This document shows positions 1,498-53,277 of a stretch of 64,000 bases of DNA, in pieces; the stretch's first letter is position 1, and each line of letters starts with the position of its first letter. The notes beneath the pieces were generated by a model that was not told the origin of the DNA, did not search any database, and was given only the letters and a program-made list of their open reading frames with translations. The DNA is taken from assembly GCF_003664995.1 (NCBI RefSeq), contig NZ_JFHL01000026.1, forward strand, positions 62,001-126,000, written 5' to 3'. A program made the position numbers and the translations under genes. This DNA is from Mesotoga sp. BH458_6_3_2_1 (GTDB lineage: Bacteria; Thermotogota; Thermotogae; Petrotogales; Kosmotogaceae).

Positions 1498-3417
1498 ATG
1501 CCTGAAAGAAGAAAGGTTCTGTCGCTTGTTCTGCTTATTCTGGTAGCTTTTTCGAGTGCGCTGTTTTCCGCTGCTGGCAAGTCTGTCCATAGCCTTGTCA
1601 TAATGGGTACAACAGACATGCATCAATACATAATGCCCTATGACTACATGGGGGACAAGCCGAATGAAAGTATAGGTCTTGCAAAGGTTTTCACGCTAAT
1701 TGAAAAGTTTAGGAGTGACAATCCGAACACTCTGCTCTTCGACACAGGTGACTTCATTCAGGGAAGCCTTGTCGGAGATTACGAGGCCGATGTGAATCCT
1801 CTTAAGGGATTCGACTTCCAGACCATCGTTCGCGCCTACAACTACATAGGATATGACGCAGTCTCTGTCGGAAATCACGATGTTACTGACTTTGGCCTGG
1901 AATTTTTTGAACGAGCGAAAAGCAATTCGGTTTTTCCCTGGGTGTCATCAAACATAAGGCTTGCAGATGATCCCAAGGGATTCTTGACCGACCCATACGT
2001 AATTCTCGACCGAGAAGTTGACGGAATCCCGATCAAGATCGGTGTGATCGGGTTCACGCCGCCACAGATTATGAGCTGGGGAAGACGTCATCTTGAAGGC
2101 AACGTCTTCACACAGGCCATTGTCGAACAAGCAGAAAAGTACATTCCTATCCTCAGAGATCAGGCAGATCTCGTAATTGCAGTTGCCCACACGGGAATCT
2201 CCACAGATGAAATAACCAGTTATGACGCTCAGGAGAACGCCGCCTATTATCTCGCTCAGATCGAAGGTATTGACGCAATGATTCTTGGTCACCAACATTC
2301 TCATTTTCCGGGTGATTTCGCAGACATCGAGAGCATCGATAACGACAAAGGCCTAATCTTCGGTGTTCCTACTGTACTTCCGGGTTCTTGGGGTTCACAC
2401 TTAGGTGTAATAAGTCTCGACCTCGCCTATGACTGGAATACGGGAGAGTGGGAAGTGTTAGATGGTTCGGCAGCTCTTGTTCCAGTAGACGCCGATGTCG
2501 AAACCCATCCGCTTCTGGCTGAACTCGTTTGGCCGAAGCACGAAGCGACGATTGAGTATGTAAGAACTCCCATCGGCTGGACCGATACAGAGATAACGTC
2601 TTACTTCTCAAGAATAATGGACAATCCTGTCACTCAGATCATAAACGAAGCTCAAATGTGGTGGGCGGAGCGTGAATTTGCCGGTTCCGAATATGAATGG
2701 CTCCCAATTCTCAGCGCCGCTGCTCCATTCATTGCCGGCAGACAGGGACCATCGTATTTTACGCACGTACAGGGCGATATTTCTATCGGATCGATCACTG
2801 ATATCTACATATATCCAAATACCGTCTATGTTGCAAAGCTAAACGGTGAGCAGATAAAAGACTGGCTAGAGGCGGCCGCAAGCAACTTCAATCAGATTGA
2901 TCCGTTGTCTACAGAGCCGCAGCATATAGTCAACTACGATTTTAGGGAATACAACTTTGACGTAATCGAGGGAATTGATTATGTTTACGACATAACCAGA
3001 CCTGCTGGCCAGCGCCTGATTTCTGCGACCTTTGAAGGCAATCCGCTTGATGAATCAATGGAATTCTTGGTAGTGACAAACAACTACAGAGGGAGCGGAG
3101 GAGGAAATTTCCCACATGTGGCAGACAACGTAATTCTAGCGACAACCGAGATAAATCGTGAAGCCATAATCAAGTACATACAGTATATAGGTGAAGTTGA
3201 TCCAGTTCCAACAAACAACTGGAAAATCCTGCCGATTGACACGACCGGGCCGCTTCTCTACCGTTCTTCTCCCGAAGGCGTAGGATACATCGAGAGGAAT
3301 GCAATCCGAGGAATAGATTTCCTTGAAGTTGATGAGGCAGGATGGGGAGTCTACAAAGTAGATCTGGTAGAACTCGCTGAATACATTGAAGAAGCAGCGC
3401 TGCAGGAAGTCAATTAG
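1498..3417 (+). CDS. Exported 5'-nucleotidase / 2',3'-cyclic phosphodiesterase family protein
   Basis: This is a secreted metallophosphoesterase that probably releases phosphate and nucleosides from nucleotides outside the cytoplasm. An N-terminal signal peptide (about residues 1-27) precedes a calcineurin-like domain. Visible metal-site motifs are TDMH (residue ~40), DTGDFIQG (~80), GNHD (~124), AHTG (~222) and LGHQHSH (~260). The C-terminal half carries the 5'-nucleotidase substrate-binding domain, with AKLNGEQIKDWLE and a TNNYRGSGGGNFP substrate loop. Its 639 residues match the UshA/CpdB/YfkN family. A strong GGAGGAG site precedes ATG 1498. It is a single-gene unit with its own promoter and terminator. 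UDP-sugar hydrolase versus cyclic phosphodiesterase specificity is not decided by what I can see. Confidence 0.9.
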   Translation: MPERRKVLSLVLLILVAFSSALFSAAGKSVHSLVIMGTTDMHQYIMPYDYMGDKPNESIGLAKVFTLIEKFRSDNPNTLLFDTGDFIQGSLVGDYEADVNPLKGFDFQTIVRAYNYIGYDAVSVGNHDVTDFGLEFFERAKSNSVFPWVSSNIRLADDPKGFLTDPYVILDREVDGIPIKIGVIGFTPPQIMSWGRRHLEGNVFTQAIVEQAEKYIPILRDQADLVIAVAHTGISTDEITSYDAQENAAYYLAQIEGIDAMILGHQHSHFPGDFADIESIDNDKGLIFGVPTVLPGSWGSHLGVISLDLAYDWNTGEWEVLDGSAALVPVDADVETHPLLAELVWPKHEATIEYVRTPIGWTDTEITSYFSRIMDNPVTQIINEAQMWWAEREFAGSEYEWLPILSAAAPFIAGRQGPSYFTHVQGDISIGSITDIYIYPNTVYVAKLNGEQIKDWLEAAASNFNQIDPLSTEPQHIVNYDFREYNFDVIEGIDYVYDITRPAGQRLISATFEGNPLDESMEFLVVTNNYRGSGGGNFPHVADNVILATTEINREAIIKYIQYIGEVDPVPTNNWKILPIDTTGPLLYRSSPEGVGYIERNAIRGIDFLEVDEAGWGVYKVDLVELAEYIEEAALQEVN

Positions 3418-3431
3418 CTTGCTTTCTGAAT

Positions 3432-3460
3432 GAAGGGCCCCGAAAGGGGCCCTTCTTATT
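3432..3460 (+). terminator. Intrinsic terminator after the nucleotidase gene
   Basis: A perfect 10-bp stem (GAAGGGCCCC / GGGGCCCTTC) with a GAAA tetraloop is followed by TTATT, 14 bp after the stop codon. Because the arms are complementary it may also serve the convergent gene to the right. Confidence 0.9.
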
Positions 3461-3506
3461 GTATTACCGCTGCATTTGGTTTGGAATTATTCGCAGTCGG
3501 GCGGTT

Positions 3507-3977
3507 CTAGGTTTCTGCTAGAGAGATGCTTACCAACTCCGAAAGAAAGTAGTTCTTGTCCTGCTCGTCGGTAATGAGATCGGCCGCTTCTCTTGCTAGT
3601 TTAATAAACTCATCCGTAGCGTCGCGTTTCCCTGCGATCATGTAGGCTCTTGCAACGGCTTCATACCCAAAGGCAAGATCGAAACCGCTTATCGCGTTGT
3701 CGGTGCAATATTTCAGCGATAGCTCTCCGTGATACAATGCCGACTCGGCCATGTTGAGCAAAGAGTAAACTCTGGACACCTGCCACTCACCCCTTGCAAA
3801 TTCGATCGGGGTACCCACTACTCCCCAGTGGAAGCGAGACGCATGAGAGGCATGTATCATAAGAAGGTCATCTTCTGCGGTTCTTTCTTTCTTATCTATT
3901 AGGTCCCATGTGAGGTTGAAGTTTTCTATCGCTTGCTTTTTGTGCCATTCCTGCTCCGTAAGCTTTTCAGAATCCAT
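3507..3977 (-). CDS. Conserved helical (TPR-like) protein of unknown function
   Basis: This is a soluble protein of 156 residues with no signal peptide or membrane segment. It is almost entirely alpha-helical and repeat-like, with paired helices such as SLLNMAESALYHGELSLKYC and YEAVARAYMIAGKRDATDEF that resemble tetratricopeptide helix pairs; such folds usually bind other proteins. The reading frame extends upstream to 4070. ATG 3977 is chosen because GGAAAGGATGG sits about 8 nt before it, while the upstream extension has no ribosome site and an unrelated composition. It is alone on this strand. I cannot assign a function. Confidence 0.65.
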   Translation of the reverse strand: MDSEKLTEQEWHKKQAIENFNLTWDLIDKKERTAEDDLLMIHASHASRFHWGVVGTPIEFARGEWQVSRVYSLLNMAESALYHGELSLKYCTDNAISGFDLAFGYEAVARAYMIAGKRDATDEFIKLAREAADLITDEQDKNYFLSELVSISLAET

Positions 3978-4317
3978 AGATAACCATCCTTTCCGGGGTA
4001 GTTTTGCCTTCCTCCCGCGTGCCAATTCTATCACTGGAAAAAAGGTTAGCAATGAGCCGCAGCAACTCACGAAGAATTAAGAGTACCTAAAGAAGCTGTA
4101 TTTTTATCGATACCCATTCGGCGAATCTGAACCATTATTGTGCAAGAGAAATATCCCAAGGGTGATTCGCATTGCTCCAATATTGAACAACGCGGTATAC
4201 TTAATCCCGTTCTGTACTCAATCCCCCAAAAAATCGATTCATGAGAAATATAGCTCTATTCAGAGCTAATCAAAGCGATTTCAAACTGATCCAGTAGACT
4301 ATTTTTCAAGCATTGCA
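3978..4317. other. Intergenic stretch between two minus-strand genes
   Basis: No gene is seen. A perfect 7-bp hairpin, TAGCTCT / AGAGCTA (4251-4268), lies downstream of the minus-strand gene at 4318-4926. With the AT-rich bases beyond it, it could be that gene's weak terminator. The part nearest 3977 should contain the promoter of the 3507-3977 gene, but I see no strong consensus. Confidence 0.4.
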
Positions 4318-4926
4318 TCACGATCCACCCATTGAGAATAACAGTTCAAGAGCATCTACGATTCTTTCCGCCTTATAAACAACTATCAGTTGTACTCCGG
4401 TTTCCTCCGAGAGCGCGGAGAAATACTCACTCGGCCCTTCCGGCGATACCAGGATTATGTAGTCGGCTTTGGGCATAAGCAAGTCGAATGACTGCCTCGG
4501 ATCGTTGTCTGGAGAAGTGAAGCCTCCTTCAATGTGAATGGCTACAACAGGAACTCCTCGCTTCTTGGCAATTGATATTAGGTCCTCAATTCTGGAAATC
4601 TCCTGCCCTACATCGATTTCCTCAACACCGCATACGGTATATAGATCTCCCTCGACCATGGCACCAGGGGCAATAATGAGAGTTCCGGGCGCATTTTCCG
4701 AATCGAGTCTCTCGGTAAAGTCTTCGGGTTTCAACTGAAGAATGTTTTCGTAATCAATTCCGTGCATTTCACAGACTATAGCGAGAACATCTGATGCTGC
4801 ACCGTCGCCTATCGCCGTTGCAATAATCGGGGGCTTTGCAATGGGTTCAAGATTCGCTGCAGAAAGTGGCGATATAAGAAACGCAACAAGTATGGCTGTA
4901 AATAGCATCGATATTTTTGGTTTCAT
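4318..4926 (-). CDS. Exported DUF6305-like protein
   Basis: A 202-residue secreted or periplasmic protein. A signal peptide (residues 1-24, ending in SAANLE) is followed by a Rossmann-like alternation of strands and helices: PIIATAIGDGAASDVLAIV, TLIIAPGAMVEGDL and VPVVAIHIEGGF. The opening glycine-rich ATAIGDGAASDV segment and the length recall the DUF6305 family, known by sequence only; that assignment is from memory and tentative. A GGAGGGG site lies just upstream of ATG 4926. No neighbour helps define its role. Confidence 0.65.
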   Translation of the reverse strand: MKPKISMLFTAILVAFLISPLSAANLEPIAKPPIIATAIGDGAASDVLAIVCEMHGIDYENILQLKPEDFTERLDSENAPGTLIIAPGAMVEGDLYTVCGVEEIDVGQEISRIEDLISIAKKRGVPVVAIHIEGGFTSPDNDPRQSFDLLMPKADYIILVSPEGPSEYFSALSEETGVQLIVVYKAERIVDALELLFSMGGS

Positions 4927-49444: not shown

Positions 49445-50503
49445 GTGGAGCCAATTAAAGTGTACATCGTTGACAACGGTACGGCGGAGATCAAGACATT
49501 ATCTGAACGGATTTCAAAGCTGAGATGGAACATGCACGTGGAGACGGTTTCAGAAGATCCCTTTGTCGGAGAAACCTCGAGGTCCAATCAATTCTATACA
49601 CTGAACAAATATCTAAAGAGCAAGTATGAAGGTTTCTCCAGCTTGATTGACGACATGATCTTTCTCGTAAGCCTTGACGATCCTTTGAGGCCCGGTAGAA
49701 TAGTCGAAGCCAATAACAGCGTGGTTCAGAAGCTTGGATTTTCTTACGAAGAGCTTCTTGAGATGAGTTTTTATTCGGTGGCTGGCGATCTTGATAATGA
49801 GATGAAGAAGATCAGAGCAGATCTTCAAATAAAGGGAATGTGTACGACGGATTCATTTCTTACGATGAAGAGTGGCGAGAAGCTTCAAGTTGAGATTTGC
49901 CTGAAGGTTCTCGACTTGCAGAACTCCATAGTAACAATGGTTGTGGCTCGAGACACAGGCGCCTACCGGAAGATAGCGGCAGAGCTTCAGTGGAGAGAGA
50001 ATTTCGAACGGGTCATTTCAGAGGTTTCCGGAGCACTCAAGGAGTACGAGAACATAGATGACGCGATAGAAAAGGCGCTTGGACAACTTGGAATGCTCAC
50101 TTCTGCAGACAGGTCCAATGTCTTCTTGCTGGACTACAGAACTAATTCTACCAGAAACACCCACGAATGGTGTAGAGAAGGTGTAATGAGCGCCAAACCC
50201 CATCTTCAGAACATGCCGTTCGACGATTTCTCGTGGTGGATGAAGGAAATGAAAAAAGGCGGGGTACATTCTTATGTAGTCAGTGATCTCCCTGAGGAGG
50301 CAAGCAGAGAAGCCGAAGTTCTTTCGCAGCTGGGAATCGTTTCACTTGTCGTCATTCCAATTTTCTCTCGTCAGAGGCCCGTAGGTTTTGTCGGACTTGA
50401 AAGGCTTAACGGCCAATTTGATTGGAGCAGGGCAGACATAGAGCTTCTAGAGGTCTTCGCCGGATTGATATCCGGAGTTATCGAATACTCGAGATTCATG
50501 TGA
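49445..50503 (+). CDS. PAS-GAF sensory protein without an output domain
   Basis: A 352-residue soluble protein. A PAS domain (~70-180) has GRIVEANNSVVQKLGFSYEE and a following LTMKSGEKLQVEI strand pair. A GAF domain (~195-350) has ADRSNVFLLDYRTNS and SLVVIPIFSRQRPVGFVGLE. The sequence ends shortly after the GAF, with no kinase, GGDEF or DNA-binding part. The first 60 residues are unassigned. GTG 49445 follows a GGAGGGG site, 36 bp after the NagA-like gene, so co-transcription is possible. It may act through partner binding; the GAF ligand is unknown. Confidence 0.75.
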   Translation: MEPIKVYIVDNGTAEIKTLSERISKLRWNMHVETVSEDPFVGETSRSNQFYTLNKYLKSKYEGFSSLIDDMIFLVSLDDPLRPGRIVEANNSVVQKLGFSYEELLEMSFYSVAGDLDNEMKKIRADLQIKGMCTTDSFLTMKSGEKLQVEICLKVLDLQNSIVTMVVARDTGAYRKIAAELQWRENFERVISEVSGALKEYENIDDAIEKALGQLGMLTSADRSNVFLLDYRTNSTRNTHEWCREGVMSAKPHLQNMPFDDFSWWMKEMKKGGVHSYVVSDLPEEASREAEVLSQLGIVSLVVIPIFSRQRPVGFVGLERLNGQFDWSRADIELLEVFAGLISGVIEYSRFM

Positions 50504-50616
50504 AGGGAAAAAATCAACCTGAAGGTCAGAGGCGTCAGGATAATTAAGGAAAAACCGCCTTGGTCCTTTGGGAAGAGCAGTTACAAGCTTTAGGCGAGAA
50601 GAAGAATAAAAGACTC

Positions 50617-50800
50617 GACGCAAGGCGCCGAAGAACATGGGCGGACGCAATGCACTGAGGAGCGTCAGTGGACGCAAGGCTGGACTAGAACATTTCAAGA
50701 AGTGATGCTGGGAAGAGCATCTCAGGAAGTGATGCGCCGAAAGATCCCGGCGGAAGTGATGCCCGGAGGATCGTCCGGGGAAGTGAGGCTGCTTCGCAGG
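50617..50800 (+). repeat. Array of seven ~27-bp units: 10-bp core plus variable hairpin (left array)
   Basis: Cores start at 50617, 50644, 50671, 50699, 50726, 50753 and 50780, spaced 27 or 28 bp. The first three are GACGCAAGGC or GACGCAATGC, the next three GAAGTGATGC and the last GAAGTGAGGC. The ~17 bp after each core differs between units, but most form a 4-6-bp stem with a short loop, for example CACTGA-GGAGCG-TCAGTG and CCCGGA-GGATCG-TCCGGG. Different stems of the same shape imply conserved structure rather than sequence. Unit 3 lacks a clear stem. Confidence 0.88.
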
Positions 50801-51644
50801 AGGCAAAAAGGGGCCAGTCTGCTAACCGAGGCAAGTTAAAAAGCGAGAATCATCGCCGCCAGTGAAAGCTTCGCTTGCCGAGGCCAGTTCCGCTTCGCGG
50901 GGAAAGAGCAGATGAACGCCGCTAAGAACCACGTTATCCGTCAACGGTCCTCCGAAAAAGAAGAAGAATAACCAGAGCAGAAGTGATGCCGCTTCCAGAT
51001 CCTACACCCGACAACCCCAGGCCCGGCTCTTCCTGGCTCTTGATCTTAAATCCCCGCTCGAGCGGGGGGGACCGCTTGCGGTGGGGTGTGTGCTCTTTGA
51101 ACAACGTTTAGAATAGGTTGGCTCCTCGCAATTGAACGACAAATTTACTCTTCACGTTATTTGGTCTGTGATCCATATGTATGGTTTTAAAAGCAACCAA
51201 GAACGCACAACGAATAACCGTTATCAGAGCATTATTTCAGGCGGCAGCTTTTCCATACTTTAGATACTCGTGCACACCCTCCGCCACTATGTGGCCCTTC
51301 TCCCTCAAGGGAGGACTTAAGATCAGGATCATCAGGAGCCAAACACAGCATTCGCACGAGAACCAGCATATTAGTGGAATTTAACTCCCTGACTCATGGG
51401 TAATAATGAGCTCTCGAGAGCGGATTAAAGAGCTTTTCAATATCGCGGAACCTTACCAGCCCTCTTTGCTTTTCCCTTCTCTCTACTCTCTGAATAATGG
51501 TTTGACCAAGAACGGTTATTCTGAAAACTCCCAATTCCGTCATTCCGACAAAGCTCCTGGTCGGAATCTCTATGGTATTTCTTCACGGCTCTCCTCAACG
51601 AACGGATAACCGTCCAACGGCGAAATAGTCTCTCCAAGAGTTTT
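50801..51644. other. Gene-free spacer between the two hairpin arrays
   Basis: No supported gene. Decayed hairpin-like pieces continue to about 50905, for example AAGC-TTCG-CTT and CCGC-TTC-GCGG. A GC-rich block at 51051-51086 contains the palindrome CCCCGCTCGAGCGGGG and then CCGCTTGCGG. Short frames at 51181-51384 and 51406-51609 have no ribosome sites. The composition changes along the stretch, as in a region of accumulated repeats or old insertions. Confidence 0.55.
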
Positions 51645-51819
51645 CGTCCCCGCGAAGCGGGCCTTGCGTCCCCGGATGCTTCTCCGGGCATTGCGACCTG
51701 GCGTGGTCTTCGCCAGCCTTGCGTCCACTGATGCTTTTCAGTGCAATGCGTCCCACCGAAGGTGGCATCACTTCCTCGCGCCAGCGAGCCTCACTTCCTG
51801 CCGGAGGCAGCATCACTTC
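51645..51819 (-). repeat. Array of seven core-plus-hairpin units in opposite orientation (right array)
   Basis: Read on the plus strand, reverse-form cores start at 51661 (GCCTTGCGTC), 51688 (GCATTGCGAC), 51716 (GCCTTGCGTC), 51743 (GCAATGCGTC), 51765 (GCATCACTTC), 51788 (GCCTCACTTC) and 51810 (GCATCACTTC). Between them are perfect hairpins: CCCGGA/TCCGGG, CTGGCG/CGCCAG, CACTGA/TCAGTG, CCACC/GGTGG, CTCGC/GCGAG and CTGCC/GGCAG. Spacing is 27-28 bp for the GACGC-type units and 22-23 bp for the GAAGTG-type units, whose hairpins have shorter loops. The same two core types as in the left array are present. Confidence 0.88.
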
Positions 51820-51939
51820 TGATCTTGATGCCACCAACCGCCACCCCTGACCCCGGCTTAAGTTTGCTTCTTCGCTTCTTATTTCGTAACTGTTGTGTTA
51901 TAAATGAAATAGTACGTAATCGAAATCATGGGAGCAGAG

Positions 51940-53277
51940 ATGAAACGAGTCAATATTCTAAATGAAAGCATGATGAGCGCCCTTCTTAAACTCGCCTGGC
52001 CGGCGGTTCTTACCATGCTCTTCCAGACCGTTTACAATATGGTCGACGCTTACTGGCTCGGGAAGTTGGGGAAAATTGAGATCTCCGCTCCCACAATTGC
52101 TTGGCCTGCAATCTTCTTGCTGATCTCTATCGGTGGAGGGCTGGCAGTAGCGGGACTGGCTCTCGTCTCTCAAAATCTTGGGGCAGGAAGAAAGGAAGAG
52201 GCCTCTCATGTAGCCGGACAGGTGATTTCCATAAGCTTAGTTGTCGCAGTGATTCTAGGTCTTCTCGGTGCGATCTTTTCCGAGGCCGTATTGAAGCTTC
52301 TCAGTATTCCGCCAGAACTGCTTTCAGTAACCAATATATACATGAGAACGATCTTTCTAGGAGCTCCCTTCACCTTCACGATGTTCACTTTCAACTCACT
52401 CTTCACCGCTATCGGTGATACAAAAACACCGATGTACTTGATGGGTTTCTCTGTAACGGTAAATGCGTTTCTCGATCCTCTCTTGATATTCGGTATAGGC
52501 TTTCCGAGACTGGAGGTCTTCGGAGCCGCTCTCGCAACTGTAATATCAAGAGGATTTGTTGTGATCGTTGCGACAGTCATTCTATTCAAGGGAAAGAGAG
52601 GATTCAAAGTCAATTTCAGAGATCTGAGACCGAAGTGGAAGACTCTTGCCCGCGTCTTGAGGATAGGTCTCCCCTCCTCTGCCGGACAGTCTATAACGGC
52701 TCTCGCATTTCTAATAATCACTTCGATGGTTGCTGGCTTCGGTTCGGTGGCAACCGCTGCCCTGGGTGTGGGGAATAGGATAACATCACTTGCAACTATG
52801 TTCTCTTTCGGCCTTTCACAGGCAACGTCATCGATGGTCGGGCAGTATCTTGGCGCCGGAAGGAAGAATGATGCTTATTCAGTTGTATGGAAGGCGACCG
52901 GAATAAACGTGTTGATTGTTGGAGTGATCTGCACCGGTACGTTCTTCTTTGGGAAGGAAGTGACGGCTTTTTTCATCAATGACCCGCTTGTCTTGATTGA
53001 AGGAGAGAAGTACTTCAGAATAGTCTCCTTTTCAATACCGGTCTTCGCAAGTTACAACATCTTCGACATGGCTCTAAGAGGCTCGGGCCATACGATTCAG
53101 TCGATGATTCTCAATATCACCAGACTATGGGGAATACGCCTTCCCCTGATATACTTCTTCGGTCTGTCCATGGGAACCACAGGAATCTGGTACGCAATGC
53201 TGGCGAGCAATCTTGTGATTTCGTCTGCGGCAGCCATGGTTATCTTCATGAAGCGGTGGCTCAAACCGGTTATCTAG
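51940..53277 (+). CDS. MATE-family multidrug/sodium exporter
   Basis: An inner-membrane antiporter of 445 residues with about twelve hydrophobic segments in two homologous halves. Recognisable pieces are PAVLTMLFQTVYNMVDAYWLG in helix 1, VSQNLGAGRKEEA after helix 2, and in the second half ALGVGNRITSLATMFSFGLSQATSSMVGQYLGAGRKNDA. Such proteins export cationic drugs or metabolites using sodium or proton gradients. ATG 51940 is preferred to ATG 51928 because GGGAG lies just before it. It follows the repeat-rich gap and has no obvious operon partner. Confidence 0.9.
   Translation: MKRVNILNESMMSALLKLAWPAVLTMLFQTVYNMVDAYWLGKLGKIEISAPTIAWPAIFLLISIGGGLAVAGLALVSQNLGAGRKEEASHVAGQVISISLVVAVILGLLGAIFSEAVLKLLSIPPELLSVTNIYMRTIFLGAPFTFTMFTFNSLFTAIGDTKTPMYLMGFSVTVNAFLDPLLIFGIGFPRLEVFGAALATVISRGFVVIVATVILFKGKRGFKVNFRDLRPKWKTLARVLRIGLPSSAGQSITALAFLIITSMVAGFGSVATAALGVGNRITSLATMFSFGLSQATSSMVGQYLGAGRKNDAYSVVWKATGINVLIVGVICTGTFFFGKEVTAFFINDPLVLIEGEKYFRIVSFSIPVFASYNIFDMALRGSGHTIQSMILNITRLWGIRLPLIYFFGLSMGTTGIWYAMLASNLVISSAAAMVIFMKRWLKPVI

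Follow-up and report, generated by a model that had tools for sequence, protein, structure and literature searches.

What kind of element is a run of small hairpins whose stems change from one unit to the next while pairing is kept, and what has kept them paired? We addressed this question at a locus in 64,000 nucleotides of DNA from Mesotoga sp. BH458_6_3_2_1 (hereafter the window, in which all positions are given unless a contig or locus is named), where such a run lies in an intergenic mosaic whose content varies strongly across species.

Anatomy of the array and its surroundings

At 50617–50804 we found seven head-to-tail units, each made of a 10-bp core and a hairpin, with cores starting at 50617, 50644, 50671, 50699, 50726, 50753, and 50780 (spacings of 27, 27, 28, 27, 27, and 27). 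These positions bear out an earlier description, made from the letters alone (the sequence-only reading), of seven core-plus-hairpin units repeating every 27–28 bp. The same reading gave every unit a hairpin of ~17 bp, which fits six units (17–18 nt) but not the seventh, where the hairpin TGCTTCGCAG has only 10 nt and is followed by GAGGC. The features are as follows; R1 is a covariance model that we built from 76 distinct 27-mers, and the A-type and B-type chains are described below.

50504–51927, no strand: non-coding mosaic with both arrays, reaching from a GAF-domain gene (49445–50503) to a MATE transporter gene (51928–53277)
50617–50643, plus: unit 1, core GACGCAAGGC, hairpin GCCG-AAGAACAT-GGGC-G (imperfect); R1 match of 34.9 bits
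50644–50670, plus: unit 2, core GACGCAATGC, hairpin ACTG-AGGAGCGT-CAGT-G; R1 match of 34.7 bits
50671–50698, plus: unit 3, core GACGCAAGGC followed by TGGACTAGAACATTTCAA, a recurring hybrid unit leading from the B-type to the A-type chain
50699–50725, plus: unit 4, core GAAGTGATGC, hairpin TGGG-AAGAGCAT-CTCA-G
50726–50752, plus: unit 5, core GAAGTGATGC, hairpin GCCG-AAAGATCC-CGGC-G; weak R1 match
50753–50779, plus: unit 6, core GAAGTGATGC, hairpin CCGG-AGGATCGT-CCGG-G
50780–50804, plus: unit 7 (terminal), core GAAGTGAGGC, 10-nt hairpin TGC-TTC-GCA-G, end tag GAGGC
50812–50900, plus: GCCAGT-type modules adjoining the array, the last containing CCG-C(TTC)G-CGG with a minus-strand GNA loop
50980–50989, plus: lone core GAAGTGATGC without a clear partner hairpin
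51648–51819, minus: second array of the same family, seven units that end in CCGCTTCGCGGGG

A typical unit has 27 nt, namely a 10-nt core, a 4-nt arm, an 8-nt loop resembling AAGANCAT, a second 4-nt arm, and G; further hairpins fall into length classes of 18, 15, 13, 12, and 10 nt. Stems have 3–5 bp and do not start with AT, and loops have 3, 4, or 8–9 nt. Cores are of two types, GAAGTGAKGC or GNCGCAAKGC (GCMTCACTTC or GCMTTGCGNC on the opposite strand). Read on the minus strand, GNCGCA cores place CGTC or CGAC one base before the hairpin, whereas GAAGTG cores place CTTC there; about half of the units have CTTC in place of CGTC. Because the unit stems differ, Tandem Repeats Finder reported only 2.3 copies in the window array. 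We rejected protein coding, as the 119-aa minus-strand ORF at 50447–50806 consists mostly of the array itself and the 27/28 spacing breaks the frame.

Stem compensation, loops and strand

The sequence-only reading held that pairing is kept as stems change, and suggested a covariation test. Unit 1 is imperfect (GCCG/GGGC) and the stem of unit 3 takes in a G.T pairing. Across the family, compensation far exceeds the controls. In ~443 kb of genome G000 and 775 kb of genome G001, the source of our array statistics and picked largely for array content, the arms pair fully in 55 of 81 distinct 17-nt hairpins, compared with 12.4 (maximum 26) when arms were reshuffled; chance therefore does not account for the stems. 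Among the 76 distinct 27-mers, 95.1% of stem cells are paired and covariation is 0.827, compared with 0.150 ± 0.025 after shuffling and at most 0.155 in a slid alignment. Two-sided stem changes number 94 versus 26.6 in the control, and both sides vary at all four stem pairs in the alignment of distinct units. The variation is not free, however: ~15 hairpin alleles recur, most of them bound to one core type (CCGG, TGC, and CGAC forms with GAAGTG cores; ACTG, TGGC, CGGC, and CGGG forms with GNCGCA cores). Because these alleles recur in a largely fixed order, much of the stem change between neighbors is inherited cassette structure.

The short hairpins obey a loop rule, and the telling side of it is the strand opposite to the one first written out. 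TNC triloops on the written strand read GNA on the minus strand (GAA in unit 7), and among the triloop hairpins that come after a core this form makes up 104 of 110 copies and 15 of 20 distinct sequences, N being any of A, C, G, or T and the mirror rule never being seen. Of the hairpins after GCCAGT modules whose stems have 4 bp or more, 79 of 93 copies fit the GNA rule. Near arrays, triloop hairpins with stems of at least 5 bp have minus-strand GNA in 58% of copies and 28% of distinct sequences, whereas away from arrays the rule and its mirror are equal at 8% each. GNNA is the prevailing form among 4-nt loops that come after cores, frequently with C or T as the third base, and in 43 of 51 GNNA copies (core and GCCAGT classes) that base is a pyrimidine. 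The RNA GNRA rule excludes C or T at this position, so these loops fit the DNA rule and break the RNA one. The longer 17–18-nt hairpins, with minus-strand loop ATGNTCTT, break the GNA rule. Mini-hairpin DNA with GNA or GNNA loops and GC stems has extraordinary stability and resists nucleases (PMC4686876); the short hairpins of the arrays satisfy the sequence rule and would be predicted to share that stability.

Only as minus-strand DNA does the window array out-fold every shuffle (z of −2.69, 0 of 200 shuffles better; plus-strand DNA, −1.86). The folding program gives no visible GNA bonus, so our case for one strand is based on the loop statistics together with a slight bias in the mismatches: distinct stems have 19 A.C versus 9 G.T mismatches on the plus strand, a lean toward mismatches reading G.T on the minus strand that is suggestive only. 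We conclude that what is selected is probably single-stranded DNA, on the strand complementary to the listed cores.

An RNA-level element, that is, transcribed hairpin chains in 3′ or 5′ untranslated regions or in a small RNA that bind protein or tune mRNA decay, appears unlikely to us. In its favor, the stems covary as those of structured RNAs do, the arrays are intergenic (none of 362 array units falls within ORFs of at least 250 aa), and the pneumococcal BOX element, a modular analog, is transcribed (PMC3049150). However, array orientation is uniform over long stretches regardless of gene direction (over one stretch of 20 kb, all 17 ORFs lie on the minus strand and the arrays on the plus strand), the window has no match in Rfam 15 at gathering or relaxed thresholds, RNA folds of the array have z of −1.58 on the plus and −0.23 on the minus strand, and loops of GNA and GNNA form with pyrimidines are neither GNRA nor UNCG.

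Ordered cassettes, their distribution and history

Exact GAAGTGATGC occurs 190 times in the genome compared with 7 for the reversed control, and GACGCAAKGC 152 times compared with 0; as these counts far exceed the controls, the cores are not chance occurrences. Mesotoga has about a hundred such non-coding mini-hairpin clusters scattered over its DNA, the window array being one of them. With the family present in relatives and the stems far above their controls, neither of the two outcomes that the sequence-only reading named as refuting it applies. In an R1 search that scored 150 first-look candidates per genome, so that counts may be low, seven genomes of the genus had at least 195 (this genome), 163, 143, 55, 47, 24, and 13 full-length units. 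Among the same number of candidates per genome, three deep-branching congeners had no unit; of the 31 other Thermotogota searched, 30 likewise had none and one, from a sister genus, had at least 2. The neighboring GAF gene is 80–91% identical in four genomes with units; in the three unit-less genomes it is 55–56% identical or has no clear orthologue. In a genome scan, true arrays among named records came from Mesotoga sp. WOFB36 and a Kosmotogaceae metagenome-assembled genome (MAG), and matches in other phyla looked like unrelated tandem repeats (Epulonipiscium, ZodW, and Geobacter) or were isolated. We rejected carriage by phages or plasmids, as a search of viral contigs, phages, and plasmids gave no match. 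We read the family as restricted to the Mesotoga clade. Typical Mesotoga arrays were also seen in a "Bacteroidales" MAG (L071) and an "Acidobacteriota" MAG (L074), which are probably mis-binned Mesotoga contigs. In G000, many arrays lie within 1–2 kb of contig ends (C2, C4, C5, C8, C10, C26, and C27), and the repeats therefore probably break assemblies and are under-counted.

The parsed arrays form two chains. Chain B runs from taaaaca to CGGC or GCCG, then ACTG or CGGG, then TGGC, and then CCGC(TTC)GCGG; chain A runs from TGCC(TCC)GGCA through a hairpin beginning TCGC and then TGGG, CCGG, and CGAC(TTC)GTCG to either one beginning TGGCGCTT or TGC(TTC)GCA with GAGGC. The window array starts as B, passes through the hybrid unit, and ends as A. 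Over 57 distinct, de-duplicated token strings, the majority order holds for 90% of pairs compared with 67% (maximum 73%) after shuffling, and the order learned in G000 predicts strings exclusive to G001 by 51 to 9, a result that is not fully independent because the genomes have common ancestry.

Orthologous loci gain, lose, and swap multi-unit cassettes. At the window locus, genome G004 is without the 50617 array and has two tandem A-type array copies (~250 bp) on the minus strand, G001 has neither array type, and G008 and G003 have unrelated spacers; in G001, an apparent group II intron reverse transcriptase, recognized by eye, stands in place of the arrays (L147:2600–4056). A block syntenic between G000 and G001 has one array inside a 99.8% identical stretch, a second with a common first unit and right flank and a differing cassette between them, and a third that is truncated in G000 beside a site with an IS110-family transposase in G001. 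An IS110-family element (DEDD_Tnp_IS110 and Transposase_20) lies inside the repeat mosaic at L116:2930–4610 of G001 (ORF 3037–4338, minus); the mosaic may be a target for elements of this type. Inverted-repeat ends and target duplications were not seen in eleven aligned copies of one subtype, and borders are graded and mosaic.

Other modules accompany the arrays. We noted a separate array with ~15-bp spacing and CGGGTTA-containing words 3′ of B-type arrays (L116:9560–10720 and L094:6200–8900), and, as further modules in the intergenic mosaics (L092:3250–3560, L099:13129, and others), CGTC-3-like REPs (beginning CGTCATCC, and GATCCCGTACAGGAGCACTACGGGATGACA) and GTAGGGGCGAACGGC hairpins. The densest array region, C7–C8 of G000 (L087–L095), is low-coding and has AbiEii, TOTE conflict system, Fic, ParE, PIN, and AAA_21 genes; it is likely a defense/toxin-antitoxin island and, given this gene content, may be a tolerant island for arrays rather than a functional partner.

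Taken together, we think it reasonably probable that the arrays are a family of palindromic repeats of the REP/BOX sort, dispersed, non-coding, and confined to one clade, which is built of ordered cassettes and selected as single-stranded DNA. Each unit is a 10-nt linker plus a mini-hairpin, read on the minus strand as CTTC or CGTC, C, the hairpin, and GCATCA or GCATTG, and would spread within ordered multi-unit cassettes and not singly. Recombination or template switching between copies would seed new loci and rewrite old ones, aided by hairpins that would form wherever replication forks or supercoiling expose the strand. The data directly show the dispersal of the family, the compensation of its stems, the loop rule with its strand, the fixed order, the polymorphism of loci, and the swapping of cassettes. 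We infer the single-stranded intermediate, any benefit to the cell, and the enzyme, which could be a trans-acting HUH/Y1-type transposase, or nothing beyond host recombination. A bolder and, to us, doubtful proposal is a dedicated single-stranded DNA system in which a putative protein reads the ordered mini-hairpins in a fixed 5′–3′ syntax and copies or joins cassettes only while the minus strand is exposed; if true, this would make the arrays a novel sort of mobile or regulatory element built from DNA hairpins and not another REP family.

Cassettes swapped between loci and species, blurred borders, and the lack of transposon ends are also what passive debris would leave, with old repeats homogenized and shuffled by gene conversion and hairpins not selected. 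We hold this to be quite unlikely, because stem compensation and a loop rule that is specific to one strand and leaves the middle base free call for selection on folding or for a copying step that depends on it.

Candidate mobilizers and known repeat systems

A REP system driven by the RAYT-like Y1 transposases of some of these genomes is very unlikely in our view. Such a gene (287 aa; Pfam Y1_Tnp, E of 7e-15; NCBIfam REP_Tyr_transpos, E of 1e-16, below the cut-off) does lie between arrays on contig C7. However, Y1 genes and arrays do not co-occur. A Y1 gene is missing from two genomes with arrays, G001 (at least 143 units) and G002 (at least 55), whereas G007 and G008 have such genes but lack arrays. 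At the remaining Y1 loci retrieved, all in other genomes, no units flank the gene, and the GTAG foot is missing; we rejected this mobilizer. Likewise rejected was the 23S-rRNA intervening-sequence (Avd-like) protein, one copy of which adjoins arrays on C8, as units lie near 5 of the 30 loci retrieved and the gene is missing from G002, which has arrays. These PF05635 four-helix proteins (L155–L184) give 20 matches in G004 and 10 in G000, while G002, G003, and G006 have none; this expansion is specific to certain lineages and does not follow the arrays. Chromosome-organizing polar sequences of the KOPS/BIME kind are extremely improbable: there are like-oriented runs and a dense cluster at 1.2–1.27 Mb in G001, and replichore polarity is attractive in part of that genome, but long counter-oriented blocks (e.g. 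plus at 1.80–1.92 Mb) break it, the skew is weak, and the family is missing from sister species.

In the literature examined we found no published description of Mesotoga mini-hairpin arrays. RepRanger counted REPs in M. prima without naming families (PMC12306157), and in the text of Di Nocera 2013 CGTC-3 is the sole REP family named for M. prima. CGTC-3 is reported in M. prima and K. olearia (PMC3733652), with an unpaired CGTC (or TGTC/CCTC) tag at one palindrome end, 9-bp stems starting with AT, loops mostly of ~5 nt (M. prima being reported to have different ones), a CCA-like tail, and dimers that are mainly head-head, head-tail ones being negligible. Both families are dispersed short palindromes with no dedicated transposase found, and B-type units have minus-strand CGTC just 5′ of the hairpin; the Mesotoga arrays differ in their 3–5-bp stems, GNA or 8-nt loops, 10-nt linker, and head-to-tail arrangement. 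Lacking the 9-bp AT-start stem, the ~5-nt loop, and the CCA-like tail, they are not CGTC-3 REPs as so described.

The GTAG REP/BIME elements with TnpA-REP, whose hairpins act as single-stranded DNA, share with the arrays intergenic hairpins, a tetranucleotide foot 5′ of the hairpin, and mosaic clusters (PMC8266576, PMC2817692). The arrays, however, are ordered and same-directional and have no GTAG 5′ of the hairpin, consistent RAYT, cognate RAYT flanked by units, or inverted pairs, which places them outside that group; they are REP-like in the broad sense, as high-copy short palindromes confined to intergenic DNA. BOX of Streptococcus pneumoniae is likewise a modular composite with a variable number of internal modules in set order and a small clade (PMC3049150). 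Unlike BOX, whose modules are of three kinds and which has terminal inverted repeats and target duplications (PMC3049150), the arrays have ~15 hairpin alleles, and no such ends were seen in the eleven aligned copies of one subtype, which argues against a MITE or BOX. We rejected CRISPR on the nature of the "spacers", which are self-complementary alleles that recur in a fixed order. The sequence-only reading, which recognized no standard class, is partly borne out: the arrays lack the defining tags of REP/BIME and BOX but work like repeats of those kinds.

Known REP families have, to our knowledge, a single stem design per family and inverted pairs; the Mesotoga arrays have ~15 stems in largely fixed order and one direction, with short loops that follow the rule of the most stable DNA mini-hairpins. 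If confirmed, this would show from nature that selection can act on palindromic repeats of bacteria as single-stranded DNA and not as RNA, and would make repeat spread testable through the loop-rule and strand prediction. The arrays are also a likely cause of Mesotoga contig breaks and a possible strain-typing marker. The d(GCGAAGC) DNA mini-hairpins have the identical GNA/GNNA loop rule, GC stems, and one strand, but are synthetic or physical models (PMC4686876), whereas the Mesotoga arrays are a genomic repeat family and, judged from their sequence, look like a new, undescribed palindromic relative of REP and BOX.
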